Shown here in pieces: positions 47,232 to 64,000 of a DNA stretch of 64,000 bases. Each line of letters begins with the position of its first letter. The stretch's first letter is position 1. The notes under the pieces are model-generated. The model was not told the origin of the DNA, did not search any database, and saw only the letters and a program-made list of their open reading frames with translations. The DNA comes from Geodermatophilus sabuli (GTDB lineage: Bacteria > Actinomycetota > Actinomycetes > Mycobacteriales > Geodermatophilaceae): the NCBI RefSeq assembly GCF_010686765.1, contig NZ_JAAGWF010000012.1, positions 124,001-188,000 of the forward strand, in the 5' to 3' direction. The position numbers and the translations under genes are program-made.

Positions 47232-48110
47232 TCACTTCCGGCCCGGCGCCCAGTTCATGCCCCAGCCGTACTGGTCGTCGAGCACGTCCTGACCCCCGTG
47301 GACGTAGCGCACCTCGCGGTTGACCACCAGCTGACCGCCCCGGTTCTCGAGGACGGCGATCGCGCAGAGCCGGGCCCGCGGGTCGTGCTCGTCCAGGCGG
47401 ACCTCCACCTGCGGTCCCGACGCCGGGATGAGGGTGACCACCGCGTCGGCGGCACCCCAGTTCGGCGTGCCCTGGTAGATGAACGCGAAGACCAGGATCC
47501 GGCGGATGTGCGCGGTGTGCCGCAGGTCGATGAGCAGGTTCTCCCCACCGGTGTTCCGCCCGGAGCGGTCGTCGCCGTCCAGCCAGGCCACCAGCTCGCC
47601 GTTGGGCAGCGTGTGCTGCCCGCGGAACGCGTTGCCCAGGGCCTGGATGACGCCCTTGGACCCGTCGGCGTACTCGTACAGGCAGCCCAGGTCGAGGTCG
47701 ATGCCACCCGACGCGGCACCGGCGAGGCGCTTGAGGAAGCCACCGCCCTGGGCGGCGGCCGGCCGGGCGTTCCAGTTGAGGTTGACCCGCAGCACGCCGG
47801 TGGTGCCCGCCGTCTTGGTGAGCGACACCGACGGCGCGTTCTTGGTCAGCGTGACCTTGCCCAACGACACCGGCGGTGTCGGCGCAGCGGGGGGCTGGGC
47901 CGGCGGCGCGCCGTGCTGCTGTGGCGGTGGGCCGCCGTACGGCTGGGCCGGGGGCGCGCCGTGCTGCTGCTGGCCGGCCGCCGGCGGCCCCCACTGCTCG
48001 TAGGGCGGCTGCTGGCCGGGCGGGTGCTGGGCCGGCGGGTCCGGCGCGGGCGGGGGCGGTGCGGCCGGCGGCTGGGCCGGCGTCCTGGGGCGCTTCGTGT
48101 AGTCGACCAT
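47232..48110 (-). CDS. TerD/TerA-like domain protein with Pro/Gln-rich N-terminal tail
   Basis: A 292-residue protein. Residues 1-~110 are Pro/Gln/Gly/Ala-rich with repeated QQHGAPPAQP units. The rest is a TerA/TerD-type beta-sandwich: KVTLTKNAPSVSLTK, then IDLDLGCLYEY and DGDDRSGRNTGGENLLIDL, acidic loops expected to bind calcium. The domain ends YGWGMNWAPGRK, as in its paralogue at 61005-61655. GTG start at 48110. Ter proteins act in stress and metal responses at the inner membrane; the exact role is unknown. Confidence 0.88.
   Translation of the reverse strand: MVDYTKRPRTPAQPPAAPPPPAPDPPAQHPPGQQPPYEQWGPPAAGQQQHGAPPAQPYGGPPPQQHGAPPAQPPAAPTPPVSLGKVTLTKNAPSVSLTKTAGTTGVLRVNLNWNARPAAAQGGGFLKRLAGAASGGIDLDLGCLYEYADGSKGVIQALGNAFRGQHTLPNGELVAWLDGDDRSGRNTGGENLLIDLRHTAHIRRILVFAFIYQGTPNWGAADAVVTLIPASGPQVEVRLDEHDPRARLCAIAVLENRGGQLVVNREVRYVHGGQDVLDDQYGWGMNWAPGRK
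47880..48010. repeat. Coding low-complexity repeats in the TerD-like gene tail
   Basis: Near-identical blocks containing GGCGCGCCGTGCTGCTG occur twice, around 47902 and 47955, encoding QQHGAPPAQP. This region is prone to slippage and likely varies in length between strains. Confidence 0.5.
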
Positions 48111-48185
48111 CGGGCCTCCCTGCAGGTCACCCCCGGCTCCTGCTGGCCGGGCGGCGGTGGACTGCCCCGACCCTAAGGCCCCGGC

Positions 48186-50222: not shown

Positions 50223-50288
50223 GGCGCCGACGCTAGCCGAGCGCCCGGCCCCCTCCCGGGCCCCGCCCCGACCGTGCGAGGGGTCGGC

Positions 50289-51032
50289 TCAGTGCTGCTG
50301 CTGTTGCGCCCGGGCGACCAGGCGCTGGCCGAGGGTGCCGGCCTGGCTGGTGGTGAGCAGCTGGGTCTGGGACTCGATGAGCCGCAGCACCGCGGGGTCC
50401 TCGCGAGCGATCTCGGAGGACTGCAGCAGCACGGTGCCCTGGCCGGTGAAGTCGTACTGCCGCTCCTCGCCGGAGGCGCGGCCCATCGCCCCCTGGAGCA
50501 TCCCGGCCATCGACGCGGACATCCACTCCGTGTCGTGGTGCACCGACGGCGACGGGCAGTCGGCCCAGCCGAGCAGCGCGTCGGGGTCGGCCCGGAACGG
50601 CGGCTCCACGAAGATCACCGGCCCGTTGGACGACGCGATGAACTTGCCCGTGCCCAGCAGGGTGACGAAGCCCGGCACGATCGACTGCTTGAGCTCCAGC
50701 CGCTGGTCGAAGGCGAGCAGGTTGTTCGCCTTGATCGTCAGGTTGCCGTCGTCGAGGTCGTAGGCGTTGAGGTCGAACCCGCGGTCGCCGAGCAGGACCT
50801 TGCCGTGGCCGGCCGCCACCACCCAGTCCTGCACGTACACCGGGCTCGAGAACCGCGCCGCCACCCACGAGGCCACCGAGGAGTAGGCCGTCACCGCCTC
50901 GAAGCGGACGTCGCCGTAGTAGGCCAGCATCGCGCCCTTGGCCATGAACCACTCGCCGGAGAGGGCCACGCAGAAGACGTGGGGGTTCACGTTGTCGTCG
51001 GCCGGCAGGGTCGCCGGGTTCCAGGTCTGCAC
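50289..51032 (-). CDS. AIM24-family protein 3 of 3
   Basis: A 247-residue AIM24 (formerly DUF124) beta-helix-type protein: FCVALSGEWFMAKGAMLAYYGDVRFE, then YVQDWVVAAGHGKVLLGDRGFDL, ending in Gln-rich AQQQQH. AIM24 proteins have no agreed biochemical function; the yeast relative is in mitochondria, and bacterial ones are linked with Ter genes. The GTG at 51032 has GAGGAG nine bases upstream. It begins 11 bp after the previous AIM24 gene. Third paralogue of a tandem triplet. Confidence 0.85.
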   Translation of the reverse strand: MQTWNPATLPADDNVNPHVFCVALSGEWFMAKGAMLAYYGDVRFEAVTAYSSVASWVAARFSSPVYVQDWVVAAGHGKVLLGDRGFDLNAYDLDDGNLTIKANNLLAFDQRLELKQSIVPGFVTLLGTGKFIASSNGPVIFVEPPFRADPDALLGWADCPSPSVHHDTEWMSASMAGMLQGAMGRASGEERQYDFTGQGTVLLQSSEIAREDPAVLRLIESQTQLLTTSQAGTLGQRLVARAQQQQH

Positions 51033-51043
51033 GTCCCCGCTCC

Positions 51044-51688
51044 TCAGAACTTCTGCTCGCTGGCCTGCACGTAGACCGTTCCCGAGCCGCTGATGCGCAG
51101 CTGGAACGCCTCCCCCGACCCACGTCCGACGGCGTCGCGGAGGCCCATCCTGGCCGCCACGTCGACCTGCAGCTGCCCGACGTGGCCGACGTAGGCCTGC
51201 GGGTCCACGCCGATCGACGTCCCGGCGACCTGCAGCGGGAAGGCACCGCCGTGGGAGAGCAGCGCCACCGCGCCGCGGCCGTGCACGTTCGTGGTGAACA
51301 GCCCCTGCCCGGTCATCGCCCCGCCGACCGCCGCGCGGACCCCGCCCGAGCCGAGGAACTGCACGCTGGTCTGCAGCCCGGCGTCGTGGGCCAGCAGCCG
51401 GTCGGCCTCGCAGACCAGCGGCGCGCTGCCGTCGAGCTCCAGCACGGTGACGTGCAGGCCCCTGTAGCCGTAGAGGACCTCGCCCTGCCCCTCGGTCGCC
51501 ATCATCGGGTTCGTCTCGCCCGACACCGCGGCACCGAGGAACCCGGCCATCCCGCCGCCCTGCCCGCGGACCGGCCGGAAGCCGACCCTCCCCGAGTAGC
51601 CGAGCATCGCTCCCCGGCGGGCCAGCACCGGCGCCTGCGGGCTGACCCGGGCGCGCACCACCTTGCTGTTCACGGTCTCGAAGGGCAC
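51044..51688 (-). CDS. AIM24-family protein 2 of 3
   Basis: A 214-residue AIM24 protein (SPQAPVLARRGAMLGYSGRVGFRPV; VHGRGAVALLSHGGAFPLQV; YVGHVGQLQVDVAARMGL). It shares the fold and residue pattern of its neighbours (alternating hydrophobic/Gly, a terminal SGSGTVYVQASEQ strand) but differs enough to suggest an old duplication. It lies three bp after AIM24 protein 1, so the triplet is surely one transcript. Function unknown. Confidence 0.87.
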   Translation of the reverse strand: MPFETVNSKVVRARVSPQAPVLARRGAMLGYSGRVGFRPVRGQGGGMAGFLGAAVSGETNPMMATEGQGEVLYGYRGLHVTVLELDGSAPLVCEADRLLAHDAGLQTSVQFLGSGGVRAAVGGAMTGQGLFTTNVHGRGAVALLSHGGAFPLQVAGTSIGVDPQAYVGHVGQLQVDVAARMGLRDAVGRGSGEAFQLRISGSGTVYVQASEQKF

Positions 51689-51691
51689 GGG

Positions 51692-52309
51692 TCAGCGCTC
51701 CGCGGACTGGACGAGGACCAGGCCGTGCCCGCTGAACCGCAGCGAGAAGGGCTCCCCCGTGCCCTCGCCGACCAGCGACTTCCACGACACCCCGGAGACC
51801 AGCCCCATCTGCAGCTGCCCCCGGCAGCCCACGTAGGCGTCCGGGTCGACGACGAGGTCCTGTCCCGGCGCCACCTCCAGCGCCATGATCGGCCCCTCCG
51901 AGACCAGCGCCACCTGGCCCTGGCCGGTGACGGTCGTGGTGGCCAGCCCCTGGCCGCTGGTCATGCCCCGGAGCCCGGCGAACTGGACGTCGAGCCGCAG
52001 CCCGTCGGTGTGCGCCAGGACGTGCTGGCTCTCGGCGGTGAGGGTGTCGCCGGCCAGGTCGACGACGAGCACGTCCATCGCGTCCTTGGCGAGGTAGGCG
52101 CGGCCGTGCCCGGTGCAGTCCATGAGCGAGAGGCTCTCGCCGGCGACGGCCCGCTTGAGCGCGGCGCGCATCCCGCCACCGGCGCCCATCCCGGCGCTCT
52201 TGAAGTCGATGTCGCCCTCGAAGGCGACCATCGACCCGCTGGCGGCGCGGATCCGGTCACCGTGCAGGTCGGCGCGGAGCACGCGCCTGTCGGCGGTCAG
52301 CTGGGCCAC
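51692..52309 (-). CDS. AIM24-family protein 1 of 3
   Basis: A 205-residue AIM24 protein (RIRAASGSMVAFEGDIDFKS; MDVLVVDLAGDTLTAESQHVLAH; YVGCRGQLQMGLVSGVSW; SGHGLVLVQSAER). It is the first of the triplet, about 110 bp downstream of the DUF475 gene on the same strand. Three side-by-side divergent copies suggest a hetero-oligomer, by inference. No signal peptide or membrane segment. Confidence 0.87.
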   Translation of the reverse strand: MAQLTADRRVLRADLHGDRIRAASGSMVAFEGDIDFKSAGMGAGGGMRAALKRAVAGESLSLMDCTGHGRAYLAKDAMDVLVVDLAGDTLTAESQHVLAHTDGLRLDVQFAGLRGMTSGQGLATTTVTGQGQVALVSEGPIMALEVAPGQDLVVDPDAYVGCRGQLQMGLVSGVSWKSLVGEGTGEPFSLRFSGHGLVLVQSAER

Positions 52310-52417
52310 GGGGTCCTCTCCGAGCGGTCACGAGGTCGACGGCGCCGGACGGTAACGGTCCCGCTCCGCCGGCGGTACACCCCGGGGTGCGACACCCCGG
52401 GCTCCCGGTCGACGCCC

Positions 52418-53533
52418 TCAGACCCTGCTGTGCTCGTCGATGCCCTCGCCGTGGTCGGCTCCCCGGTTCTCGAGCAGCTCGCGGGCGTCCCGCTTGTTCG
52501 CGACGATCGAGCTCACGTAGGCCGCCAGGATGAAGCCCAGCCCCAGCAGGCCGGTGACGAACTCGGAGATGTGGAACTCCAGCTCGATGATCAGGATGAT
52601 GGCCAGCGCGCCGATGGCCCAGTGCGCGCCGTGCTCGAGGTAGCGGTACTCCGCGAGCGTCCCCTGGCGGACGAGGTAGACGGTCATCGAGCGGACGAAC
52701 AGCGCGCCGATGCCGAGGCCCGCGGCGATGACGAGCACGTTCGTGCTGATCGCGAAGGCGCCGATGACACCGTCGAAGGAGAAGGACGCGTCGAGGACCT
52801 CGAGGTACAGGAACGTGGAGAAGCCGGCCTTCCCGGCCGTCGCGACGGCGGGGCCCACGCCGCCGCGGCGCACCACGTGCTCCTCGTCCACCTCCTCGTC
52901 GTCGTCGGTGTCGAAGAAGCTGTCGAGCCCCGAGACGACGAGGTAGGTCACCAGGCCGATGAACCCGCTGAACAGCACGGTGTTGACCTCGGCCTCGTCG
53001 ACGACCCGCGAGGCGAGGAGGATCAGCACGGCCGCGATGACCACGGACAGCTGGTCGAGCCTGCCGAGCTTCGAGAGGGCCGCCTCGAGCGGCCGCAGCC
53101 ACTTGATGTCCCGCTCCTCGAAGATCCAGTCGAGGAAGATCATCAGCAGGAAGACGCCGCCGAACGAGTAGATCGCCGGCTTGGCGCCCTCCAGTTCCTC
53201 GGCGTAGGTGTCGACGTCGTTGAGCGCGAGGTCGATGACCTCGGTGAACCCGAGGTCAGCCGTCAGGGCCACGATGAGGATCGGGAAGACCAGCCGCATG
53301 CCGAAGACGGCGATGAGGATGCCGACGGTCAGGAAGAGCTTCTGCCACAGCGGCGTCATCTTCTTCAGGTACTTGGCGTTCACGACCGCGTTGTCGAACG
53401 AGAGCGTGACTTCCAGGATCGCCAGTACCAGCGCGGTGGCCACCAGTGCGATCGAGCCACTGAGGACGCCGACGAGGACGAGGACGATGACGGACACGGC
53501 CAGAGAGCCGCGGAACGCTTTCAGCGTCTGCAC
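52418..53533 (-). CDS. DUF475 / TerC-like integral membrane protein
   Basis: A 371-residue multi-pass membrane protein. EVTLSFDNAVVNAKYLKKM holds the SFDN acidic motif of the TerC/Alx superfamily, repeated in inverted form at DASFSFDGVIGAFAI. At least eight hydrophobic helices surround an acidic cytosolic loop (DTDDDEEVDEEH). TerC-like proteins are proposed metal (manganese or similar) exporters. GTG start at 53533 with GGAG eight bases upstream. Starts the minus-strand arm leading into the AIM24 triplet. Confidence 0.9.
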   Translation of the reverse strand: MQTLKAFRGSLAVSVIVLVLVGVLSGSIALVATALVLAILEVTLSFDNAVVNAKYLKKMTPLWQKLFLTVGILIAVFGMRLVFPILIVALTADLGFTEVIDLALNDVDTYAEELEGAKPAIYSFGGVFLLMIFLDWIFEERDIKWLRPLEAALSKLGRLDQLSVVIAAVLILLASRVVDEAEVNTVLFSGFIGLVTYLVVSGLDSFFDTDDDEEVDEEHVVRRGGVGPAVATAGKAGFSTFLYLEVLDASFSFDGVIGAFAISTNVLVIAAGLGIGALFVRSMTVYLVRQGTLAEYRYLEHGAHWAIGALAIILIIELEFHISEFVTGLLGLGFILAAYVSSIVANKRDARELLENRGADHGEGIDEHSRV

Positions 53534-53791
53534 TGCGTTGACTCCAAGAGTGAGGGGCCCGGCGCGTCATCAACGGGTCCGTGTGCCGTCGGCCGGGACA
53601 GGGACCCAGGCTACTAGCGGCCCCGCGCGCGGACCCCGGTCGACCGTCGGAGCGCCTCGAGCGGCCGCCGCCGCGAGCCCACCCGGAGCGGCCGGATCCG
53701 GTGCCCGCAGACCGGCGGCTCCCGGACGTGGTACTCATCGGCGCACGGGGCGGCGTCGGCACCCCGCGGCGGCTGGAGGGTGGACGGCGGC
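53534..53791. other. Divergent intergenic region at the centre of the Ter locus
   Basis: About 258 bp between the DUF475 gene and the coiled-coil gene. A minus-strand TAGCCT near 53615-53610 is a possible -10. A GGAGGG site (53775-53780) precedes the plus-strand ATG. No strong palindrome or hairpin found. Confidence 0.3.
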
Positions 53792-55069
53792 ATGGGCGGG
53801 CAGACGGGAGGCACCGCGTCGCGCTGGTGGCGCCGCGGTCGCGATGCCGCGCTCCAGGACGCGCTGCGTGAGGCGCAGCAGGCCCGGGAGGCGGCCGCGG
53901 CGGCGATGCTGGACCTCGACGCCGAGCTCAGCGGCCTGTCCGTGGACGTCGCGGCGCACGAGGACGCCGCGGCCCCCCGGCGCGCCGCGCACCGGTCCCC
54001 CGCCCCCGATCCGCTGGTGCAGGACTGGCGTGAGCTGTCCGGTCGCACGGACGCGGTCATCGGCGAGTACCTGTCGGCGCTCGCCGACCACGACCCGGCG
54101 TACCCGGCGGACGTCGCCGCCGTCCAGGGGGCGCGGGCCCGACTGGAGCGCGCGGCGGCCGCCCTGCGCGACGTCCTCCCGCTCGTCCGGCAGTTCCGGG
54201 CCCGGCACGAGCGGGCGCTGGCGCAGGCGCGCGGCGCCCGCACCCTCGCCCCCCGGCGGGTGGCCGAGGCCGCGGCGGCGGTCGACCGGGCTCGCTCGGC
54301 GCTGGACGCCACCGGAGGACAGGTCGCCGACCCGGGACTGGCCGGTGCACTCGAGGCAGCCGTCCGCGCCGCCGCCGAGGCGCGCGCGGCCCTCGACGCC
54401 GGCCGGCTGACCGCCGCGGGCGGCGCGGCCGAGACCGCCCGCGCCGCGGCGGACTCGGTGGCCCAGCGGGCCGCTGCACTGCCCGCCCGGGCGGCCGACG
54501 TCCGCCGGGGGGCGGCCTCGGTGCGGACCCGCCAGGAGGCGCTGCGCACCCGGCACGAGCGGCTGGCGCCGGTGATGAGCGAGCTGCGCCGCCGCTACAC
54601 CCACCGCGCGTGGGCCGACGTGGAGGCCGCGCCGCAGCGGGCCGCGGCGGCCCTGGCCGAGGTCGACGAGACCCTGACCCGACTCGACCGGCTGCTCGGC
54701 GCCCCCGTGCTCGACGTGCCCGCCGCCGCCGCGCTGCTCGAGCAGGTACGGGGGGCCGCCAGCCGCGCCGAGCAGGAGATCCGGTCGGCGTCCGACCGGC
54801 TGTCCCGGCTCGACACCGCCTCGGCCGACCCCGGGGCGCTGCTGGCCACGGTGCAGCGGGAACTGGTCGACGCCCGCCGCTTCCTCGCCACCCTCCCGGA
54901 GGGTCGCGGTCAGCGGTTCCGGTCGACCTTCGACAACCTCGCCCGGCGGCTGCAGGCGCTGGAGACCGAGGTGCGCGGATCCCGGCCCGACTGGGGGCAC
55001 GTCATCACCGAGGCGGGGTCGATCGAGGACGGCCTGGCCGCCATGATCCGCACCGCCCGGGCCGGCTGA
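53792..55069 (+). CDS. Ala-rich coiled-coil protein of unknown function
   Basis: A 425-residue soluble, Ala/Arg/Glu-rich protein predicted by eye to be largely helical and coiled-coil (ALQDALREAQQAREAAAAAML; ARLERAAAALRDVLPLVRQF; EEVD/LTRLDRLL stretches). The end, ARRFLATLPEGRGQRFRSTFDNLARRLQAL, looks more conserved. No signal peptide, transmembrane helix or known domain. The ATG at 53792 lies 11 bases after GGAGGG; a GTG at 53780 overlaps that site. It is the only plus-strand gene in the Ter locus, divergent from DUF475 and convergent with the HAD gene. It could be a scaffold for TerD or AIM24 proteins. Confidence 0.75.
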   Translation: MGGQTGGTASRWWRRGRDAALQDALREAQQAREAAAAAMLDLDAELSGLSVDVAAHEDAAAPRRAAHRSPAPDPLVQDWRELSGRTDAVIGEYLSALADHDPAYPADVAAVQGARARLERAAAALRDVLPLVRQFRARHERALAQARGARTLAPRRVAEAAAAVDRARSALDATGGQVADPGLAGALEAAVRAAAEARAALDAGRLTAAGGAAETARAAADSVAQRAAALPARAADVRRGAASVRTRQEALRTRHERLAPVMSELRRRYTHRAWADVEAAPQRAAAALAEVDETLTRLDRLLGAPVLDVPAAAALLEQVRGAASRAEQEIRSASDRLSRLDTASADPGALLATVQRELVDARRFLATLPEGRGQRFRSTFDNLARRLQALETEVRGSRPDWGHVITEAGSIEDGLAAMIRTARAG

Positions 55070-55105
55070 GCCGGGTCTCTCCAGCCCGGGGCGGCGGAGC
55101 CGGGG

Positions 55106-55930
55106 TCAGCCCGCCCGGGCGAGGAACCAGCGCAGGATCTCCTCGCCGGCCAGCGCCCCGCTGGCGGCGGTCACCGCCACCCCGCCGGCCGACCAGCCCT
55201 GCTCGTGCAGCTCACCGTGCGCGGGGCGGATCGCCTCGTCCGCGGCCACCAGCATCGGCGCGTCGAGCAGGCTGTCGCCGGCGCACAGCAGCCGCACCGG
55301 TGCACCCCCCGCCTCGGCCAGCTGCTCCCGCAGCCGCAGCAGCGCGCCGGCCTTGGTCAGCCCGGCCGGGACGGCGTAGACCTTGCGGCCCTGCAGGCTC
55401 ACCGTCCACCCCGCATCCGCCGCGGCGGTGGTGAGGTCGGCCAGCCAGCCCGGGGGGATGGCGTCGCGGGCGGTGGCCACCAGGTAGACGAACAGCCCCT
55501 CGGCGGCGCGGACCGTCCGCACCCACGGCTCCCCGGCGACCGCGTCGAGCAGCCGCAGCACGTCGGGCAGCGGCGCCGCGCGCGCCACGACGTCCCGCGC
55601 CCAGCGGTCCCAGCCCGGGTCGCGGTCGCCGTCGACGAGGAGCGCTCCGCCGTTGGCGCACAGCGCGTACCGGGGCCGGCCGGGCATCGACACCCGCCGG
55701 TACTGGGCCTCGGTGCGCGTGGTCACCGGCACGACGGTGGCCCGGCCCATCAGCTCAGCCAGCAGCGCCCAGGCGCCGTCGGTCACCCGGGACAGCGGCG
55801 CCCCGTCGTAGACCTCGACCACGCGCAGCGAGGGCAGCGTCGCCGGGTCGCCGGCCGCGGACGCGGAGTAGATGAGCGTGCGGTCGAGGTCGACGGCGGC
55901 CAGCGTGGCCGTGCCCAGGACCGCCGTCAC
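55106..55930 (-). CDS. HAD-superfamily phosphatase of the Ter biosynthetic module
   Basis: A 274-residue HAD hydrolase. Motif I is VDLDRTLI (nucleophile D14, D16), with threonine motif II around VVPVTTRT and motif IV GDSLLDAPML. The cap region is of the Cof/sucrose-phosphatase type (C2). In Ter loci such an enzyme accompanies two PRTases and a C-C lyase and is predicted to dephosphorylate a sugar- or nucleoside-phosphate. Its start is 4 bp inside the end of the StiP gene. Confidence 0.9.
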   Translation of the reverse strand: MTAVLGTATLAAVDLDRTLIYSASAAGDPATLPSLRVVEVYDGAPLSRVTDGAWALLAELMGRATVVPVTTRTEAQYRRVSMPGRPRYALCANGGALLVDGDRDPGWDRWARDVVARAAPLPDVLRLLDAVAGEPWVRTVRAAEGLFVYLVATARDAIPPGWLADLTTAAADAGWTVSLQGRKVYAVPAGLTKAGALLRLREQLAEAGGAPVRLLCAGDSLLDAPMLVAADEAIRPAHGELHEQGWSAGGVAVTAASGALAGEEILRWFLARAG

Positions 55931-57066
55931 GCGCGCACCGGGCGGATCAGCCCGACGCAGGAGTACGGCAGGTCCGGCACCTCGAGCACCGGCACCCCGC
56001 GGGCGTCGGCCAGCGCGCGGACGTGCCGCAGGTCCTCGATCCGCCCCGGGTGGACCAGCACCCGCCAGGGCACCCGGCGCAGCAGCACCCGCGTGGTCTC
56101 CCCCACCCCGGGCTTGACCAGGTTGACGTCGCCGATGCCGTGCTCCTCGGCGATCCGGGAGACGGCTGCCCAGCCGGCCCAGGTCGGGCTCCGGTCGGCC
56201 GCCGCGTGCGCCGGCAGGGCGGCCGCGACCGCCCCCGCGACGGAGCCGAACCGGCCCGCGACCGTGTCGACGAACAGCCGCGAGACGTCGCCGTCCGCGT
56301 GCTCGGCGTAGAACTTCGCGCCGTGGAACATGCCGGGGCCGATCAGGTCGTCCCGCAGCACGGTGCGCGACACCAGCCCGGACACGGTGCTGTTCAGGCA
56401 GGCGCTGGGGATGAGGAAGTCGTCCCGGGTGCCGTACAGGTCGGTGCAGGCGCCCGGGTCGGCCAGGACGGCGAGCCGGTCGTCGAGCGCCGCGTGCTCC
56501 GCGTGCCGCGCCCGCCAGCCCGCCACGGCCTCGGTCAGCTCCCGCTGGATCGCGCCCTTGCCGGTCCAGCCGTCGACGAAGCGCACCGCTGCCGCCGGGT
56601 GCCGGTCCAGCACGTGGGCCAGCGCGACCTCGTCGATGCCCCGGCCCCGGACGATCGAGATCGTGTAGTGCGGCACGTCGACGCCGCGGGAGGCGAGGAA
56701 CCAGCGCCGCAGCAGCACCCCGACCGGCGTCCCGGCGCGCGCCAGGGACACCAGCACGGGCGGCACGCCGTGCTCGGCGGCGGCGCCCCAGACCAGCTCG
56801 CCGACCAGTCCCACCGCCGTCGCGAGCCGGTCGGCCGACTGGGCCAGGGCGGCGGTGAACAGGTCCAGGTAGGCCGCGTCGGGCTGGTACTCGACCGGCA
56901 GCATCTCCGAGTAGTGGACGCCGCCCTGGATGGCCTCCTCGCGGTCCTGCGTGCCGCGCTCGAGGGCGACGCCGGAGAGGTCGGTGAGCAGCCAGGTGAC
57001 GTCCTCGACCGGATAGGACCCGAACCGGCCGGGGACGGCGGGCCGCAGCGCGTCGAGCACGGTCAC
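55927..57066 (-). CDS. StiP-family protein (PRTase-like, Ter module)
   Basis: A 379-residue StiP-family protein (database name cysteine protease StiP; structurally tied to PRTase folds). Conserved segments: DVTWLLTDLSGVALERGTQDREE, GVHYSEMLPVEYQPDAAYLDLF, VSLARAGTPVGVLLRRW, YTISIVRGRGIDE and FVDGWTGKGAIQRELTEA, the last a PRPP-loop-like motif. The C-terminal domain around VNLVKPGVGETTRVLLRR may be the PELOTA-type RNA-binding part. GTG/ATG overlap with both neighbours shows tight coupling. Confidence 0.88.
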   Translation of the reverse strand: MTVLDALRPAVPGRFGSYPVEDVTWLLTDLSGVALERGTQDREEAIQGGVHYSEMLPVEYQPDAAYLDLFTAALAQSADRLATAVGLVGELVWGAAAEHGVPPVLVSLARAGTPVGVLLRRWFLASRGVDVPHYTISIVRGRGIDEVALAHVLDRHPAAAVRFVDGWTGKGAIQRELTEAVAGWRARHAEHAALDDRLAVLADPGACTDLYGTRDDFLIPSACLNSTVSGLVSRTVLRDDLIGPGMFHGAKFYAEHADGDVSRLFVDTVAGRFGSVAGAVAAALPAHAAADRSPTWAGWAAVSRIAEEHGIGDVNLVKPGVGETTRVLLRRVPWRVLVHPGRIEDLRHVRALADARGVPVLEVPDLPYSCVGLIRPVRA

Positions 57067-58364
57067 GGGGTCCCCCGTCGCGGATCGGTCACCGGTACGG
57101 GCACCAGGTGCACGGCCCGCGCGGCGAAGGGTCGCAGTGCGGCGACCATCGCGGCGCAGGCCGCGGCCGGGGCGTCGGCGACGACCACGACGTCGTCGGC
57201 GCGCAGGTCCGCCCAGGCCGTCCCGGGCACCGGCGGCGCGGCCGGGTCGGTGAGGTTGTGCACGAGGGCCGGCCGGCTCAGGTCGTCGGGGGCCGGGAAG
57301 GCGACGGTGCGGCGGACGGCGTACCCGGGGTCGTCGGCCGCGTGCACCGGGCTCCGGGTGGTCGACTGCAGGCGGACCGGCGTCCCGGGCAGCCGGGTGG
57401 CCAGCCGGTCCCCGAGCACGGCCGGCGCGTACATGAGCTCCTCGGTGCCGAGCACCAGCACCGAGCCGCTGCCGGCCAGGGCCGGGACCAGCCGCGCGGC
57501 GACGTCGTCGGCCGCCGCGGCGAGCCGCTCGGTGTCCGCGGGCGTCAGGCCGTGCCGCGCGGTGGTCGGCACCTCGCGGGGCCAGAGCCCGGCGTGCTCG
57601 ACGACGGCGCCGGGGAGCCCGGTGGGCGGAGCGGCGGGCGGGGGCAGCGCGGCGCGGGCGACCGCGGCCCGCGCCAGGACGTCGCCGGGGAGGGTGAGCG
57701 AGGCCGCCACGACGCAGGCGACGTCGACGCGGACGCCCAGCGCGGCGGCGCGGGCCTCGAACGCTGCCCGCAGCTCGGGGGTCCGGGCGTCGAGCAGCGC
57801 CGCGACGACGTACCGCGGCCGCGGGAAGCGGGCGTGCAGCTCGGCGATCGTGTTCAGCGCGGTGCGGCCGGAGGTCAGCTCGTCGTCCACCAGGACCAGC
57901 GGGCCGGCGCCGGCCAGCGAGACCTCCCCGGCCGGCTGCAGCGCGTGGGCGACCGCGTGCGAGTGCTCCTCCTCGAAACGGGCGGCGACGGGCACGCCGG
58001 GGTGCACCCGCCGGGTGGTGTGCAGGTAGGCGGCGCCCAGCCGCTGGGCGGCGGCGTGGCCGAGGCCGGTCGCCGTCTCGCAGTAGCCGATCACCAGTCC
58101 GGCGGGGCCGGCCTGCCCCAGCACCGCCGCGACGGCGTCGCCCACGGCAGCACCGGCGCCCAGCACGTCGGAGGGCGCGGCCGGGACGTGCTTGCCGAGG
58201 ACGCGGGACACCACCAGGTGGGCGCGACGGGGGTTGTCGCGCAGCGCCAGACCGGCCCAGTCGGGGAAGGCCGCACGCCCGGTCCCGGAGACGGTGACGT
58301 CGAGGAGCGCGGCGACGGTGGCCGACAGGGGGACGGTGGCGGGCGCGGCGAGGGTGCCGGTCAC
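57063..58364 (-). CDS. Phosphoribosyltransferase with TRSP-type C-terminal domain
   Basis: A 433-residue protein. Residues ~35-230 form a PRTase with the PRPP-binding loop LVLVDDELTSGRTALNT (157-171) and GYCETATGLGHAAAQ. The C-terminal part (LGTEELMYAPAVLGDRLA; VRLQSTTRSPVHAADDPGYAVR) matches the TRSP domain found after this PRTase. It would attach a ribose phosphate to a base-like acceptor in the proposed nucleoside-like pathway. The GTG at 58364 overlaps the stop of the lyase gene. Confidence 0.9.
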   Translation of the reverse strand: MTGTLAAPATVPLSATVAALLDVTVSGTGRAAFPDWAGLALRDNPRRAHLVVSRVLGKHVPAAPSDVLGAGAAVGDAVAAVLGQAGPAGLVIGYCETATGLGHAAAQRLGAAYLHTTRRVHPGVPVAARFEEEHSHAVAHALQPAGEVSLAGAGPLVLVDDELTSGRTALNTIAELHARFPRPRYVVAALLDARTPELRAAFEARAAALGVRVDVACVVAASLTLPGDVLARAAVARAALPPPAAPPTGLPGAVVEHAGLWPREVPTTARHGLTPADTERLAAAADDVAARLVPALAGSGSVLVLGTEELMYAPAVLGDRLATRLPGTPVRLQSTTRSPVHAADDPGYAVRRTVAFPAPDDLSRPALVHNLTDPAAPPVPGTAWADLRADDVVVVADAPAAACAAMVAALRPFAARAVHLVPVPVTDPRRGTP

Positions 58365-59548
58365 GCCGGCAGCGCCCGCGCGAAGACCTGCTCCACCTGG
58401 CGCCGGCCGGCGCCGAGCAGGTCGACCAGCGCCAGCTGGTCGGCCACGACGCCGTACACCGCCGCGCGCCGGCTGATCAGCTCCGCCCAGAGCGCGTGCG
58501 GCCCCACCTCGTTCATCCGGCCGTGCGCCGAGGCCATGACCCCGCCCAGCGAGCGGGCGGTCAGGATCTCCAGGGCGTCGTCGTACTCCGAGCGCGAGAC
58601 GGTCAGCAGCGCGTTGACCACCGACACGTGCGCCGGGTGGATGACGGTCTTGCCGTGCATGCCGTTGGCCTTGTCCAGGCTCACCTCGCGGATCAGCCCG
58701 TCCATGTCGTCGTCGATCAGGTCCTGCCGCAGCGCGCTCTCCCGCTGCGCGGAGAAGGGCGTCTGGCGCAGCTGGGGCTTGAACAGCCGCGGGCCCGGGA
58801 TGTGCTCCCAGACGGCGCCGGTGACGACGTGCTCGCCGTTCCGGGCGAACCGGTTGACGATCGCGGCCAGGCAGTCGCGCACGACGGCGACGTCCCACAC
58901 CGTGGTGTCCCGGTCGCGGCGCAGGCCGAACAGCCCGGAGAGGTCGGTGCCGCCGACCCGCAGGCACAGCACCGAGTCGGCGTACCGGTCGAGCGCCGCC
59001 GCGACCCCGGCGAGCGCGTCGGCGCGGGTCTCGGACCAGGCGACGTCTGCCGTCTCCAGGATGGGCATGGCGTAGAGCGGGTGCGCGCAGCCGGCGCTGA
59101 CCTCGGCGACCGCCGCCAGCATCGGGTCCAGGCTGGCGGCCGAGGCCTTCGGCAGGCTGAACCCGGTCAACCGGTCCAGCGCGGGGCCGGCCGCCTCGGC
59201 CAGCCGGTGGATCTGCTCGGGCTCGCGGACCCGCACGAACAGCAGCGGGAGGTCCGCACCGCAGCCGCGGGGCTCGATCCGCCGCAACGCCTCGACCACG
59301 TTCGCCTCGGCGGCCGGGACGGCGGCGTGCGGGATGGCGTCCTCCAGGCACCACACCATGCTGGTCGTGCCGACCGCCCCTGCGCGCGCCGCGTCGACGT
59401 CGAGTGCCGGGCGGGTGCCGGGGCTGTAGAGGGTGGCCCCCAGGGCGAGGGCGAGGGTGGCGCGGGGGCTGGCGGGTGTCACGGTGCCCGGGGGCACCGC
59501 GAAGAGCCGGTCGCGCTCGTGGTCGCTGAGATAGGAGAAGTGGCGCAC
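58361..59548 (-). CDS. CitE/HpcH-like C-C bond lyase of the Ter module
   Basis: A 395-residue TIM-barrel protein of the HpcH/HpaI-CitE superfamily (C-C_Bond_Lyase group): TTSMVWCLEDAIPHAAVPAAEANV, FVRVREPEQIHRLAEA, LPKASAASL and GKTVIHPAHVSVVNALL. The Glu/Asp metal site is implied by CLEDAI. It may cleave or condense a carbon precursor used by the PRTases. First gene of the tightly overlapping lyase-PRTase-StiP-HAD set; 62 bp downstream of the TerD-vWA gene. Confidence 0.9.
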   Translation of the reverse strand: MRHFSYLSDHERDRLFAVPPGTVTPASPRATLALALGATLYSPGTRPALDVDAARAGAVGTTSMVWCLEDAIPHAAVPAAEANVVEALRRIEPRGCGADLPLLFVRVREPEQIHRLAEAAGPALDRLTGFSLPKASAASLDPMLAAVAEVSAGCAHPLYAMPILETADVAWSETRADALAGVAAALDRYADSVLCLRVGGTDLSGLFGLRRDRDTTVWDVAVVRDCLAAIVNRFARNGEHVVTGAVWEHIPGPRLFKPQLRQTPFSAQRESALRQDLIDDDMDGLIREVSLDKANGMHGKTVIHPAHVSVVNALLTVSRSEYDDALEILTARSLGGVMASAHGRMNEVGPHALWAELISRRAAVYGVVADQLALVDLLGAGRRQVEQVFARALPA

Positions 59549-59610
59549 GGATGGTCCTCCCGCTTCTTGGGGGAACGCCGGGATGGGGTGGAGCCCGATG
59601 CGGGCGGCGG

Positions 59611-61008
59611 TCAGCCGGCCAGCAGGCCCTGGCTGCGGACGCGCCGCAGCCAGTCGGGGTACTCGGTCATCAGCCGGTCGAACAGCTCGTCGTCGCTGAT
59701 CGGCGTGCGGCCCATCAGCTCCTTCTCGCCCACGGCGAAGAAGTCGGCGTTGTCGGTGAAGCGGCCCTCGAGGTCGTCCAGTTCCTGCAGGAAGGCGAAC
59801 TGGGCCGCCGGGCCGATGCCCATGAACTGCCAGAAGACCGGCTCGTAGGAGGCTGCCGTCATCTGCTTGCTGGCCACCGCCCGGTCGCTGGGGGCGCCGT
59901 CGGTGAGGAACATGACGTAGACGGGCACGCGGTAGGGCACCGGCTCGCGCCGGTCCCCGCTCGAGCCGAAGTAGTGCTCACGCACCGCAGTCATCGCAGC
60001 ACCGTAGCGAGTGTCGAACTCGAGTTTGTGGCGCTTCGTGATCGTCGCGATGAACTCCTGGTGACCCTCCAGCCGCAGGCCCGGCCGCGGCTGGTGCACC
60101 TTCCTGCCGAAGAGGAAGACGTCGACCTCGCCGTCGTCGTCGAAGCGCAGGCCGAGGGCCAGCACCCGCTCCGCCAGCCGCTGCACCGCGCCCGACCGGT
60201 AGAGGCCGGCCATCGACCCGGAGATGTCGAGCACGAGGGCGACCCGCGCGGTGTGCTCACCCAGCCCGCGCTTCTGCAGGCTGACACCGGCGGTCTTGAC
60301 CAGCGAGAGCATCTGCGGCGCGCTGCCGGCCAGCTTCTCCTCGAGGTCGACGAGGCGGCGCTTCTCCATGCTGACGGGGGCCGGAGCGGCGGGTGCTGGC
60401 ACGGGAGCGGGGGGCGCAGGCGCGGGAGGAGCGGACGCCGCAGCCGCCGGGGTGGGTGCGGCCGCCGGCTCGTCGACGTCCACGCCGACGTCGGTCGCCA
60501 GCCCGGCGAGGCCGGTCGTGTAGCCCTGCCCGACGGCGCGCACCTTCCACTCGCCGGCGCGGCGGTAGACCTCGGCGAAGACCAGCGCCGTCTCCGGACC
60601 GGCGGCCAGCTCGCAGCGGACCGCAGCGGGCGCACCGGCGTCGGCGGCGACCTCGACCGCCACCCCGGTGAGGTCCCCGAAGGTGCCGGCGCCGTCCAGC
60701 GAGGCGCCGATGACGACCTTCTCGACGTCGGCCGGCAGCCGGCTGGGGTCGATCCGCACCCGGTCGACGGTGGCCGCGCCCTGGACCGCCTTGCCCAGGT
60801 GCTCGACCGCCCCGTTCCCGCCGGAGGGCTGGTTGTAGAAGACGAAGTCGGCGTCGCTGCGCACCCGGCCCGCGCCGGTGGTCAGGAAGGCCGACAGGTC
60901 GGCGTCCAGACCGGGCGCCGGCTGCCAGGTGAGGGTGACGACCACGGAGCCGGTGAGGCCCACGGCGGCGAGGCCGACGTTGCCGCCGCGCGTGAGGAGG
61001 TGGGTCAC
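59611..61008 (-). CDS. TerD-vWA fusion protein (TerF-like)
   Basis: A 465-residue protein with a TerD-like domain (~1-178; FVFYNQPSGGNGAVEHLG, ALVFAEVYRRAGEWKVRAVGQGY), a Pro/Ala linker (~181-212) and a von Willebrand A domain (~255-440). The MIDAS is DISGSMAGLY (D261-x-S-x-S) with a later TDGAPSD. The linker region repeats KTAGVSLQKRGLGEHTAR before vWA. Such proteins link calcium-binding Ter domains to metal-dependent protein contacts. GTG at 61008 overlaps the stop of the preceding TerD gene. Confidence 0.9.
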   Translation of the reverse strand: MTHLLTRGGNVGLAAVGLTGSVVVTLTWQPAPGLDADLSAFLTTGAGRVRSDADFVFYNQPSGGNGAVEHLGKAVQGAATVDRVRIDPSRLPADVEKVVIGASLDGAGTFGDLTGVAVEVAADAGAPAAVRCELAAGPETALVFAEVYRRAGEWKVRAVGQGYTTGLAGLATDVGVDVDEPAAAPTPAAAASAPPAPAPPAPVPAPAAPAPVSMEKRRLVDLEEKLAGSAPQMLSLVKTAGVSLQKRGLGEHTARVALVLDISGSMAGLYRSGAVQRLAERVLALGLRFDDDGEVDVFLFGRKVHQPRPGLRLEGHQEFIATITKRHKLEFDTRYGAAMTAVREHYFGSSGDRREPVPYRVPVYVMFLTDGAPSDRAVASKQMTAASYEPVFWQFMGIGPAAQFAFLQELDDLEGRFTDNADFFAVGEKELMGRTPISDDELFDRLMTEYPDWLRRVRSQGLLAG

Positions 61009-61655
61009 TTGCGACCCGACGTCCAGTTCATGCCCCACCCGTAGGCGGCGTCCAGGTCGCGCTGGACGCCGGGCAGGTAGCGGATCTCCCGCTGGATGGT
61101 CAGGCCGCCGCCGGAGTTGGTCAGCAGGGCGATGGCGCAGGACCGGGCGTTCTGGGCGTGCTCGTCCAGGCGCACCTCGATCGGCGCGGCGTCCTGCGGG
61201 AAGAGCGTGACGACGGCGTCGGCGGCGGCCCAGTTGGGCGCGCCCTCGTAGATGTAGGCGAACACCAGGATCCGGCGGATCGCGTCCAGCCGGTCCAGGT
61301 TGACCAGCAGGTTCTCGCCGCCGGAGACCTTCCCGGAGCGGTCGTCGCCGTCGAGGAGGACGAAGGGCGCACGGTCCAGGGCGCCGAAGGCGTTGCCGAG
61401 GGCCTGGACCACCCCCTTCTTCCCGTCGGTGGTCTCCCACAGGCAGGCGAGGTCGAGGTCGACGGCGGGGGTCTTGGTGAACAGCCCCCGCTTCTGCGCC
61501 CCGGAGTTCCAGTTGAGGTTGATCCGCAGCTGGCCACCGGCGCCGCGGCCCTTGGTCAGGGACACCGACGGCGCGCCCTTGGTCAGCGTCACCTTGGACA
61601 TCGAGACGCCGCCGGCCGGAGCGGCGGGCTTGGCGGGGCGGGTGTAGTCGACCAT
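61005..61655 (-). CDS. TerD/TerA-like domain protein
   Basis: A 216-residue Ter-domain protein: MSKVTLTKGAPSVSLTKG, VDLDLACLWETTDGKKG, DGDDRSGKVSGGENLLVNL and ending YGWGMNWTSGRK. The two acidic clusters are the expected calcium sites. It is a close paralogue of 47232-48110 but has only a short Lys/Pro N-terminal lead. I chose the ATG at 61655 (MVDYTRPAKPA), matching the paralogue's MVDYTKRP. Coupled to the TerD-vWA gene by a GTGA overlap. Confidence 0.9.
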   Translation of the reverse strand: MVDYTRPAKPAAPAGGVSMSKVTLTKGAPSVSLTKGRGAGGQLRINLNWNSGAQKRGLFTKTPAVDLDLACLWETTDGKKGVVQALGNAFGALDRAPFVLLDGDDRSGKVSGGENLLVNLDRLDAIRRILVFAYIYEGAPNWAAADAVVTLFPQDAAPIEVRLDEHAQNARSCAIALLTNSGGGLTIQREIRYLPGVQRDLDAAYGWGMNWTSGRK

Positions 61656-61736
61656 GGCGGGACCTTCCAGGAGCGGGGAGCAAGGAGGGACGGCGGCACC
61701 GGGCCCGGGCGGTCGACCGCCCGGGCCCGGCACGGA

Positions 61737-62318
61737 TCAGCCGACGTTGACGCCGAAGTCCTGGGCGATGCCGCGCAGGCCCGAGGCGTAGCCCTGCCCG
61801 ACGGCGCGGAACTTCCAGTCCGCGCCGTTGCGGTACAGCTCGCCGAAGACCATGGCGGTCTCCACCGACGCGTCCTCGGTCAGGTCGTAGCGGGCGATCT
61901 CCTGCCCGTTGGCCTGGTTGACCACGCGGATGAAGGCGTTGCGCACCGCGCCGAAGTTCTGCTTGCGCGTGTCGGCGTCGTAGATGGACACCGGGAAGAC
62001 GATCTTCTCGCAGGTCGGCGGCACCCCGGCCAGGTCGACCTGCACGACCTCGTCGTCGCCCTCGCCCTCACCGGTCAGGTTGTCGCCGACGTGCACGACC
62101 GAACCGTCGGGGCTCCGGAGGTTGTTGAAGAAGACGAAGCCCGAGTCGTCGGGCGTGACCTTGCCGTTGGCGCCGACCATGATCGCCGAGGCGTCGAGGT
62201 CGAACTCGCCTCCGGAGAAGGTGTTGACGTCCCAGCCGAGACCGACGTTCACCGCGGTCAGGCCGGGCGCCTCCTTGGTGAGCGAGACGTTGCCGCCCTT
62301 GGAGAGGCTGACACCCAT
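61737..62318 (-). CDS. terD: TerD-family tellurium/stress resistance protein
   Basis: A 193-residue canonical Ter[68 protein letters not shown] and [21 protein letters not shown]. The DLDAS and GEGEGDDE loops bind calcium in characterised TerD proteins. ATG at 62318. The longer frame upstream has no TerD-like sequence. Cytosolic, likely oligomeric with the other Ter-domain proteins here. Confidence 0.95.
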
Positions 62319-62589
62319 GTGGAGAACTCCCATACATCGCCAGGTACGAGGCGGCGGTTGCCGCTCCGCGTCACGACAGGGGACGCCGCCGGGCCGGCGG
62401 TCGCCGGACGCTCCGGTGCCCGGGCGTCGTCCCCCGTTCCGCACCCGTGACCGGCGCCACGGGCTGCGGACGTTCGTCGGGATACTGCCGCACCTGATCC
62501 GGTAGCGACAGGCACCCCGTGGTGCCCACCAGCCCGGGGGCGCCGGTCACCGGCCCGGGGCGGACCGGCGCCGACCACCCCCGGGGCCG
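62319..62589. other. Intergenic region between two TerD genes
   Basis: These 271 bp contain no convincing ORF. A minus-strand CAGTAT in GCAGTATCCC (around 62489-62484) is a weak -10-like sequence that could give terD its own promoter. No strong hairpin. Confidence 0.3.
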
Positions 62590-63168
62590 TCACAGGTGCG
62601 GTGTCACCGCGGGGACCAGGTCGCCCACGGTGCGTCCCGACGCGACGGCCCCGATCGCCGTCATCACCCAGCCGCCGCCGGCACGCGAGACCTTGGCCAT
62701 GATCTGCGCGGTGTGCCGGCCCGAGCCGGACAGGTCGAACCGGGCCAGCTCCTGCCCGGTGGTCTCGTCGACCAGCCGGCAGAAGGCGTTCTGGATCTGC
62801 GAGAAGTCCTGCCCGGTGAACGAGTTCACCGTGAAGACGAGGCTGTGCACGGCAGCCGGCACGCGGGGCAGGTCCACGACGATCGACTCGTCGTCCCCCT
62901 CCCCCGCCCCGGTGAGGTTGTCGCCGGTGTGCTGCACGGAGCCGTCGGTGCTCCGCAGCTGCCGGAACCACACCTGGTCGACCAGCCGTCCGCCGGCGTC
63001 CATCAGCAGACAGGACGCGTCGAGGTCGATGGACTGGTCCTTCAGCCGCCCGAACACGCTCTTCTTCTGGACGGCGTCCCAGCCCAGACCCATCCGGACG
63101 CGGCTGAGGCTGCCGCCCCCGGGCTTGGCCAGGCTCACTCCCTGACCCTTGGTGAGGGTGACGCTCAT
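62590..63168 (-). CDS. TerD-family protein (TerZ/TerX-like)
   Basis: A 192-residue TerD-domain protein: MSVTLTKGQGVSLAKPGG, QSIDLDASCLLMDAGGRLVD, STDGSVQHTGDNLTGAGEGDDE and ALRFDLSG-type strand LARFDLSGSGRHTAQIM. It is the most N-terminal-proximal Ter gene next to TerC. The C-terminus deviates from terD (ASGRTVGDLVPAV). The ATG at 63168 overlaps the TerC-gene stop (ATGA). Confidence 0.93.
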   Translation of the reverse strand: MSVTLTKGQGVSLAKPGGGSLSRVRMGLGWDAVQKKSVFGRLKDQSIDLDASCLLMDAGGRLVDQVWFRQLRSTDGSVQHTGDNLTGAGEGDDESIVVDLPRVPAAVHSLVFTVNSFTGQDFSQIQNAFCRLVDETTGQELARFDLSGSGRHTAQIMAKVSRAGGGWVMTAIGAVASGRTVGDLVPAVTPHL

Positions 63169-64000
63169 GCCCGCTCCTCCCCGTTCCGGCCGCCGTCGGT
63201 GGCTCGCACCGCGGCGGTCCGACCGGTCGGCGGGGCGTCGGCCCGGCCGCCGGTCGGCAGGTCGTCGTGCAGCTGCGGTGCGGCCACCTGGCGGCCCTCT
63301 CGGCCCGCGCCCGCGTCGCCCGCCTCGGTCGGTGACGGGCGCCCGGCAGCGGCGTCCCGCTTGTTCTTGCGCAGGCTGGCCCAGGTGGTGACCGCCAGAG
63401 TGACGACGATGACCAGCAGGGACAGCCAGGTCGGGATCTCGGGGATCGCCGTGACGTGCTCGCCGCCGTTGATGAACGGCAGCTCGTTCTCGTGCAGGGC
63501 GTGGATGACCAGCTTGACGCCGATGAACCCGAGGATGACCGCCAGGCCGTAGGCGAGGTAGACGAGCTTGTCGAGCAGCCCGTCGAGCAGGAAGAACAGC
63601 TGGCGCAGGCCCAGCAGCGCGAAGGCGTTCGCGGTGAAGACCAGGTAGGTCTCCTGGGTCAGCCCGAAGATCGCCGGGATGGAGTCGACGGCGAAGAGGA
63701 TGTCGGCGCTGCCGATGGCGATCAGCGCGATGAACAGCGGCGTGATGAACCGCTTGCCCCCGACCTTCGTGGTGAGCCGGTCGGAGTGGTAGTCCTCGGT
63801 GGTCGGCAGCAGCCGGCGGGTCAGCCGCAGGAAGCCGTTCTCCTTGAACTCCTCGTCGTCGTCGTGGCCGCCGCTCTTGGCCTGCGCCCACGCGGTGTAG
63901 ATGAGGAAGCCGCCGAACAGGTAGAAGATCCAGCTGAAGTTCTCGATGGCCGCGGCGCCGGCGAAGATGAAGACCGTCCGCAGCGCGAGGGCGAACGCGA
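63165..64000 (-). CDS. terC: TerC-family integral membrane protein, 5' end outside window
   Basis: The last ~278 residues of a TerC/Alx protein. ADILFAVDSIPAIFGLT is the diagnostic motif, in a helix that may form the metal path. Other helices: TVFIFAGAAAIENFSWIFYL, LVFTANAFALLGLRQLFFL and LAYGLAVILGFIGVKLVIHA. The final ~60 residues are a polar tail after WASLRKNKRD. Predicted manganese or metal exporter pairing with the TerD proteins. It continues beyond the window edge. Confidence 0.93.
   Translation of the reverse strand, partial: AFALALRTVFIFAGAAAIENFSWIFYLFGGFLIYTAWAQAKSGGHDDDEEFKENGFLRLTRRLLPTTEDYHSDRLTTKVGGKRFITPLFIALIAIGSADILFAVDSIPAIFGLTQETYLVFTANAFALLGLRQLFFLLDGLLDKLVYLAYGLAVILGFIGVKLVIHALHENELPFINGGEHVTAIPEIPTWLSLLVIVVTLAVTTWASLRKNKRDAAAGRPSPTEAGDAGAGREGRQVAAPQLHDDLPTGGRADAPPTGRTAAVRATDGGRNGEERA

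Follow-up and report, generated by a model that had tools for sequence, protein, structure and literature searches.

The window analyzed here is a stretch of 64,000 nucleotides from Geodermatophilus sabuli (contig NZ_JAAGWF010000012.1, positions 124,001 to 188,000), and our subject is the Ter cluster that occupies it from position 47,232 to its end. Ter genes have been linked to tellurite, phage, and colicin resistance through a mechanism described as unknown, and AIM24 genes neighboring TerD have already been reported (PMC5822837), while Ter systems that include TerD, TerC, TerF-type vWA, phosphoribosyltransferase (PRTase), and HAD proteins have been summarized (PMC7824862). The window cluster shares all of these elements and is an already described Ter system: what is new is a protein here called CC, together with the way it alternates with TelA next to the C-C bond lyase of the cluster. 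CC is the most informative gene of the cluster, and it was passed over by the first-pass annotation, which had been made from the sequence alone.

Genes and domains were named by Pfam and NCBIfam scans of the predicted genes (Table 1). All cluster genes lie on the minus strand except CC, which is divergent from DUF475 and convergent with the HAD gene. PF02342 (TerD) matches three genes above its cut-off (62590–63168, 61737–62333, and the fusion at 59611–61038), to which are added two TerA-like genes (61005–61655 and 47232–48110) that match no Pfam model, even at an E value of 10, but that a profile comparison links to TerD (probability 94%, E 9e-8); their products are identical to each other at 128 of 219 positions (58%). 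A TerC-family membrane protein is present, the DUF475 protein also gives a TerC match, and the enzyme set of PRTase, StiP-PELOTA, HAD, and lyase is complete and kept both in relatives and in all six genus-mates, by which we mean the six other Geodermatophilus genomes of our family draw that carry the lyase. Most of the first-pass annotation is borne out by these scans, namely the TerD-vWA fusion, StiP, PRTase-TRSP, the lyase, DUF475, the three AIM24 genes, and the S9 peptidase, and the HAD gene is likewise present, with a weak NCBIfam match and with a relative annotated as HAD on a Prescottella plasmid. Its TerC gene and "four more TerD" genes need qualification: TerC, both TerD genes, and the fusion stand, and because there are three PF02342 genes and the TerA-like gene at 61005–61655, which has no PF02342 match, the number is right only when the fusion is counted. 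The further gene that it called TerD-like, at 47232, keeps its relation to TerD by profile and is TerA-like.

The 2012 account of Ter-dependent stress response systems by Anantharaman, Iyer, and Aravind is said to have counted StiP, the lyase, and DUF475 among their parts. An enterobacterial ter plasmid cluster, pC45_001, shares TerD, TerC, vWA, PRTase, StiP, and lyase with the window but is annotated with ATP-grasp and TerB genes, which are matched by no window cluster gene, whereas CC, TelA, DUF475, and AIM24 are not among the annotated genes of its 28.9-kb stretch.

Table 1. Features of the Ter cluster in window numbering
Feature	Position	Strand	Evidence and remarks
TerA-like, 292 amino acids, Pro-rich N-terminus	47232..48110	-	paralogue of 61005–61655; no Pfam match; kept in 3/6 genus-mates
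S9 prolyl-oligopeptidase-type peptidase, 678 amino acids	48186..50222	-	PF00326 9.5e-42; accessory
AIM24 protein c	50289..51032	-	PF01987 4e-12
AIM24 protein b	51044..51688	-	PF01987 4e-33
AIM24 protein a	51692..52309	-	PF01987 3.7e-39
DUF475/TerC-like integral membrane protein	52418..53533	-	PF04332 1.5e-119; TerC 3.2e-18
CC, 425-amino-acid helical rod, putative TelA substitute	53792..55069	+	no Pfam family; AlphaFold2 pLDDT (predicted local distance difference test) 93.7
HAD-type phosphatase	55106..55930	-	NCBIfam HAD 2.7e-5, weak and below cut-off
StiP domain and PELOTA RNA-binding domain	55927..57066	-	PF11202 6e-101; PF15608 2.8e-34
PRTase_2 and TRSP	57063..58364	-	PF15609 1.5e-59; PF12500 1.9e-29
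C-C bond lyase (CitE/malyl-CoA lyase-like TIM barrel)	58361..59548	-	PF15617 2.5e-104; malyl-CoA lyase 4l9y 1.3e-6
TerF-type TerD-vWA fusion	59611..61038	-	PF02342 1.2e-38; PF10138 8.7e-56
TerA-like, 216 amino acids	61005..61655	-	kept in 3/6 genus-mates; paralogy and profile evidence
TerD protein 1	61737..62333	-	PF02342 8.5e-83
TerD protein 2	62590..63168	-	PF02342 3.1e-48; orthologue in 0/6 genus-mate stretches
TerC/Alx membrane protein	63165..64000 (gene to window-equivalent 64322)	-	PF03741 8e-50; TIGR03718 1.9e-112

CC and TelA beside the lyase

TelA (PF05816), a toxic anion resistance protein described as part of submembrane structures (PMC7824862), adjoins the lyase in other genera of the family, and CC likewise stands beside the lyase, in alternation with it. 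The family draw comprises 57 genomes, taken from a larger group, of which 23 hold a full lyase copy (E 1.2e-102 or better); some match at 0.001 occurs in 49 and one over the cut-off in 27, the weaker matches having been dropped as short or distant citrate-lyase-type pieces. Searches of these whole genomes, for CC by the window sequence alone (E 0.001) and for TelA at E 1e-10, returned CC in 12, TelA in 10, and both in none, with exactly one of the two in 22 of the 23 lyase genomes, always on the lyase contig (CC 4.2–5.5 kb and TelA 1.7–4.2 kb from the lyase). The exception, G031, has neither, and its lyase lies on a 9-kb contig. Such disjointness would arise by chance with a probability of about 1e-5, a figure that ignores kinship. 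The whole window genome, which has CC, contains no TelA at E 1e-10, and accordingly no PF05816 gene beside its lyase.

A second collection, the best 80 of at least 586 confirmed lyase loci ranked by closeness to a Modestobacter lyase, is a non-random sample of named loci: CC occurs in 62, TelA in eight, both in none, and neither within the stretch in 10, the counts of 62 and eight covering the locus stretches and not the rest of each genome. When the genomes of the 10 remaining loci were searched whole, CC was found in four, TelA in four others, and neither in two; Sanguibacter suaedae is a species in which these searches found neither. Those four TelA genes adjoin a small partner gene and a TerD gene and so reproduce the TelA cassette of the lyase loci, the partner match in L214 being weak (35.5 bits). 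Three CC-bearing genomes of genus g19 also have TelA elsewhere, without partner or TerD within 1.5 kb. The two collections overlap (L124 is G042, L126 is G021, and L162 is G026), and their counts are therefore not additive.

In the phylum draw of 296 actinobacterial genomes (E 1e-30 for lyase and DUF475), a profile built from 20 CC proteins picked out the 12 lyase genomes and none of the 284 others; in each of the 12, CC shares a contig with the lyase, at a distance of 1.2–11.0 kb. This result is partly circular in that nine of those 12 genomes contributed profile rows. Independent of the profile building are G079, G238, and G249, lyase genomes with CC 10.5–11.0 kb off, and the finding that no lyase-free genome has CC.

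The partner of TelA is a protein of about 160 amino acids without a Pfam match (L059:12798-13292 and relatives), which accompanies TelA in 10 of 10 TelA-type stretches of the family and gave no match in the CC-type stretches searched. Two simple explanations of the alternation were rejected. CC is not a diverged TelA: it has no PF05816 match and no sequence or profile similarity to TelA. Nor does CC lie hidden in TelA-type loci, as a full-sensitivity profile search of 18 TelA-type and seven of the 10 "neither" stretches found nothing below E 0.01 except in L184, where a piece of CC stands at the stretch end.

The alternation can be read as a replacement of TelA by CC, a role taken up in the last section, or CC could serve the Ter enzymes as an obligate partner, for instance by holding PRTase, StiP, and lyase, and have no connection with TelA, in which case two ancient cluster lineages would underlie the alternation. 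The absence of sequence relationship between CC and TelA, and the different positions that they occupy within the cluster, would suit such an enzyme partner, as would the lyase tree, in which few switches are needed. This tree has 90 rows, five of them labeled from whole-genome searches; the switch count omits three rows, two in which TelA is distant from the lyase and one that has neither gene. It requires two exchanges between CC and TelA, and the same number is enforced by the starred branches, but one of them depends on a doubtful join, in which Geodermatophilus (CC) groups with three TelA rows; the tree program flags this as a join of long branches that may be false. A previous tree, with 36 rows, enforced a single exchange. 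Lineage alone fails, however, for Rhodococcus marinonascens: its lyase belongs to the CC clade (starred), but a search of the genome gave no CC, and the TelA cassette is on another contig; if real, this is a further switch. The near-complete occurrence of one or the other gene in the family, with no genome holding both, also argues against the enzyme-partner explanation, which we consider rather unlikely.

Sequence and predicted structure of CC

The window CC matches no Pfam family at E 0.01 and two at E 10, the better of them at 0.027. A profile search of 5.8 billion proteins retrieved at least 35 relatives, in Geodermatophilus, Nocardia, and Nocardioides, the list being partial as scoring was limited to the 8000 candidates sharing most words; where their records carry names, these are hypothetical protein, uncharacterized protein, or, in three Joint Genome Institute records, chromosome segregation ATPase. 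A general chromosome-segregation coiled coil was considered for CC and set aside, as the NCBIfam SMC match (2.2e-5) is far below the cut-off and the distribution disagrees. Among the papers listed, titles and opening parts of abstracts contain no link between the CC family and Ter or TelA, the founding Ter paper of 2012, which may mention CC, lying outside this coverage.

The AlphaFold2 model of CC is a helical rod of high confidence, and a structure search ranked EzrA first, a membrane scaffold and spectrin-like division regulator (PMC4243239); this fold match is weak evidence for a scaffold role of CC. No TelA structure is among the structural matches listed, and a sequence search of the PDB found none. 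The CC model resembles EzrA as a helical-bundle rod, and a hydrophobic N-terminal segment that may be a membrane anchor is present, going by predicted starts, in 23 of 62 CC relatives, with many Streptomycetaceae among them. CC differs from EzrA in its genome context, which is that of Ter, and the window CC has no transmembrane segment, nor any hydrophobic segment upstream of its predicted start; the N-terminus of CC in Geodermatophilus has instead an Arg/Trp motif, RWWRR. In sequence, six of the 20 CC members match PF06160 (EzrA) at E 0.01 or better, the best at 8.6e-7 and the window CC not among them, but the scores seen for three members (26.7, 27.3, and 17 bits) are all under the gathering cut-off of 39.6 bits, and CC is therefore not assigned to the EzrA family.

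No CC was found in plasmid records by the window sequence at E 1e-5. The profile did find a diverged CC on the 432-kb Prescottella equi plasmid p1-WH99 (L121), in a CC-type Ter cluster with TerB, and this type of cluster can therefore sit on a plasmid.

Core and accessory genes of the cluster

The first-pass annotation had joined the two arms of the cluster, the TerD genes and enzymes on one side and DUF475, AIM24, and S9 on the other, into one system, and this holds for DUF475 but less so for the remainder of the second arm. A full DUF475 copy is present in 15 of the 57 family genomes (the G008 copy is cut by a contig end, and a further four genomes, which gave nothing beyond weak TerC-type matches, were not counted); all 15 carry the lyase, and in 14 the two genes share a contig, 2.6–9.3 kb apart. 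The phylum draw has the lyase in 12 genomes and DUF475 in 16, including all 12, at separations of 3.0–6.0 kb. For DUF475, then, the arms are neither far apart nor independent across genomes. The AIM24 triplet occurs in nine family genomes, all with the lyase and eight with the triplet on the lyase contig (the ninth, G010, has it on another contig of a draft in about 520 contigs), and in nine of the 80 named loci, seven from Nocardia and one each from Trujillonella and Blastococcus, and the S9 gene is in 11 of the 23 family lyase stretches, the window included, whose lengths differ. In view of the DUF475-lyase linkage and the patchy AIM24 and S9 genes, we regard DUF475 as core and the latter two as options.

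If the arms were instead separate systems lying side by side, enzymes with TerD next to DUF475-AIM24-S9, one would understand why no AIM24 triplet turned up in 14 of the 23 family lyase genomes, why S9 is in only two of the 80 named loci, and why TerA-like genes stand at both ends, as in the window, in a single genus-mate. Against a single unit there also weighs that four of the 16 DUF475 genomes of the phylum draw lack the lyase. The close spacing of DUF475 and lyase (in 14 of the 15 genomes concerned in the family draw and all 12 in the phylum draw), together with the lyase in every genome with the AIM24 triplet, makes separate systems improbable, and the stretch is almost certainly one linked actinobacterial Ter cluster.

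Within Geodermatophilus, for which ten genomes were drawn and three lack the full lyase, all six genus-mates keep S9, AIM24 a to c, DUF475, CC, HAD, StiP, PRTase, lyase, TerF, TerD1, and TerC, and none has an orthologue of TerD2. The TerA-like gene beside S9 is kept in three and that beside TerF in three, one genus-mate having both and one neither; TerA-like genes closing both ends had been considered a sign of unity, and this idea was dropped given that distribution. In the otherwise variable DUF475-CC intergenic stretch, CGTGGTAnnCA at 53727–53737 is invariant in seven of seven Geodermatophilus and is a possible promoter or operator; no sigma-70-like promoter or terminator was found in 53300–55300.

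Several observations concern the enzymes and the surroundings of the cluster. In seven of 10 loci examined, the StiP gene is 830–861 amino acids long and seems to be fused to that of PRTase, with the order PRTase_2-TRSP-StiP-PELOTA in L071. The StiP stretch FVDGWTGKGAI is invariant in 11 of 11 relatives and resembles the phosphoribosyl pyrophosphate loop motif of phosphoribosyltransferases, and StiP may be a second PRTase-like enzyme; when the profiles of StiP and PRTase_2 were compared, no relation emerged (probability 0.2%, from thin alignments), and no solved homologue of the main domain was found by sequence. The family name of StiP is that of a cysteine protease, yet the Cys of SACLNST is missing from the enterobacterial copy. 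Many Actinomadura and Thermomonospora loci have genes of about 439 and 164 amino acids after HAD (L134:14580-15899 and L134:15918-16412), the former of which may, going by its letters, be a trehalase-kind glycoside hydrolase. The TerC gene starts outside the window, running over 63165–64322 with window numbering continued along the contig, and is followed by yjbR and uvrB; cluster TerC is near uvrB both here (63165–67227, same numbering) and in four of the six genus-mates, and uvrB does not adjoin the TerC paralogues of two cluster-free Geodermatophilus genomes (L203, L204). On the other side, an AlkZ-like DNA glycosylase gene (46106–47209) of the same orientation is separated from the cluster by 22 bases and was seen in none of the six genus-mate stretches, three of which (L050, L051, L055) have a flavin mononucleotide dehydrogenase gene as cluster neighbor. 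Two more TerD-domain genes lie elsewhere in the window genome (C1:145861-146319 and C10:27456-27953), with no other cluster gene matched in the 20 kb around each. The window has no Rfam family at gathering score and no tRNA. Ten of the 16 cluster proteins were compared with the anti-phage library PADLOC, and none matched.

Proposed role of CC

On account of its alternation with TelA beside the lyase, of the helical-rod model with its EzrA match, and of the hydrophobic N-termini, CC is probably a submembrane scaffold that replaces TelA. Judging from their families, the enzymes (PRTase, StiP-PELOTA, HAD, and lyase) would respond to stress by producing a nucleoside- or nucleotide-like signal, and the proposal of a nucleoside-like metabolite, which the first-pass annotation also cited, is already in print (PMC5822837, PMC7824862). 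TerD and TerA proteins may sense or bind this signal, and TerC and DUF475 may act on metal ions in the membrane. CC would be a rod of helical bundles, spectrin/EzrA-like, whose N-terminus keeps it at the membrane, through the hydrophobic segment in many Streptomycetaceae and through RWWRR in Geodermatophilus, and would do the job done in related clusters by TelA with its small partner protein. That CC is merely a hitch-hiking EzrA-type division regulator, as its structural and weak sequence match to EzrA and the hydrophobic N-termini of many Streptomycetaceae might suggest, is very improbable, since its presence in all 12 lyase genomes and none of the 284 others is unlike the spread of a division gene.

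We further propose, tentatively and as something well short of probable, that CC founds a new family of spectrin/EzrA-like membrane scaffolds, the structural effector of a nucleotide-signal Ter system, which has been swapped repeatedly and non-homologously with TelA. If two unrelated proteins swap at the same enzymes, their shared property is probably the effector function. Were this true, a submembrane rod would be a required and interchangeable function of Ter, from which a functional reading of TelA would follow as well. For CC itself, conserved in actinobacteria and named hypothetical or chromosome segregation ATPase in the records found, the scaffold role is a first suggestion of function.

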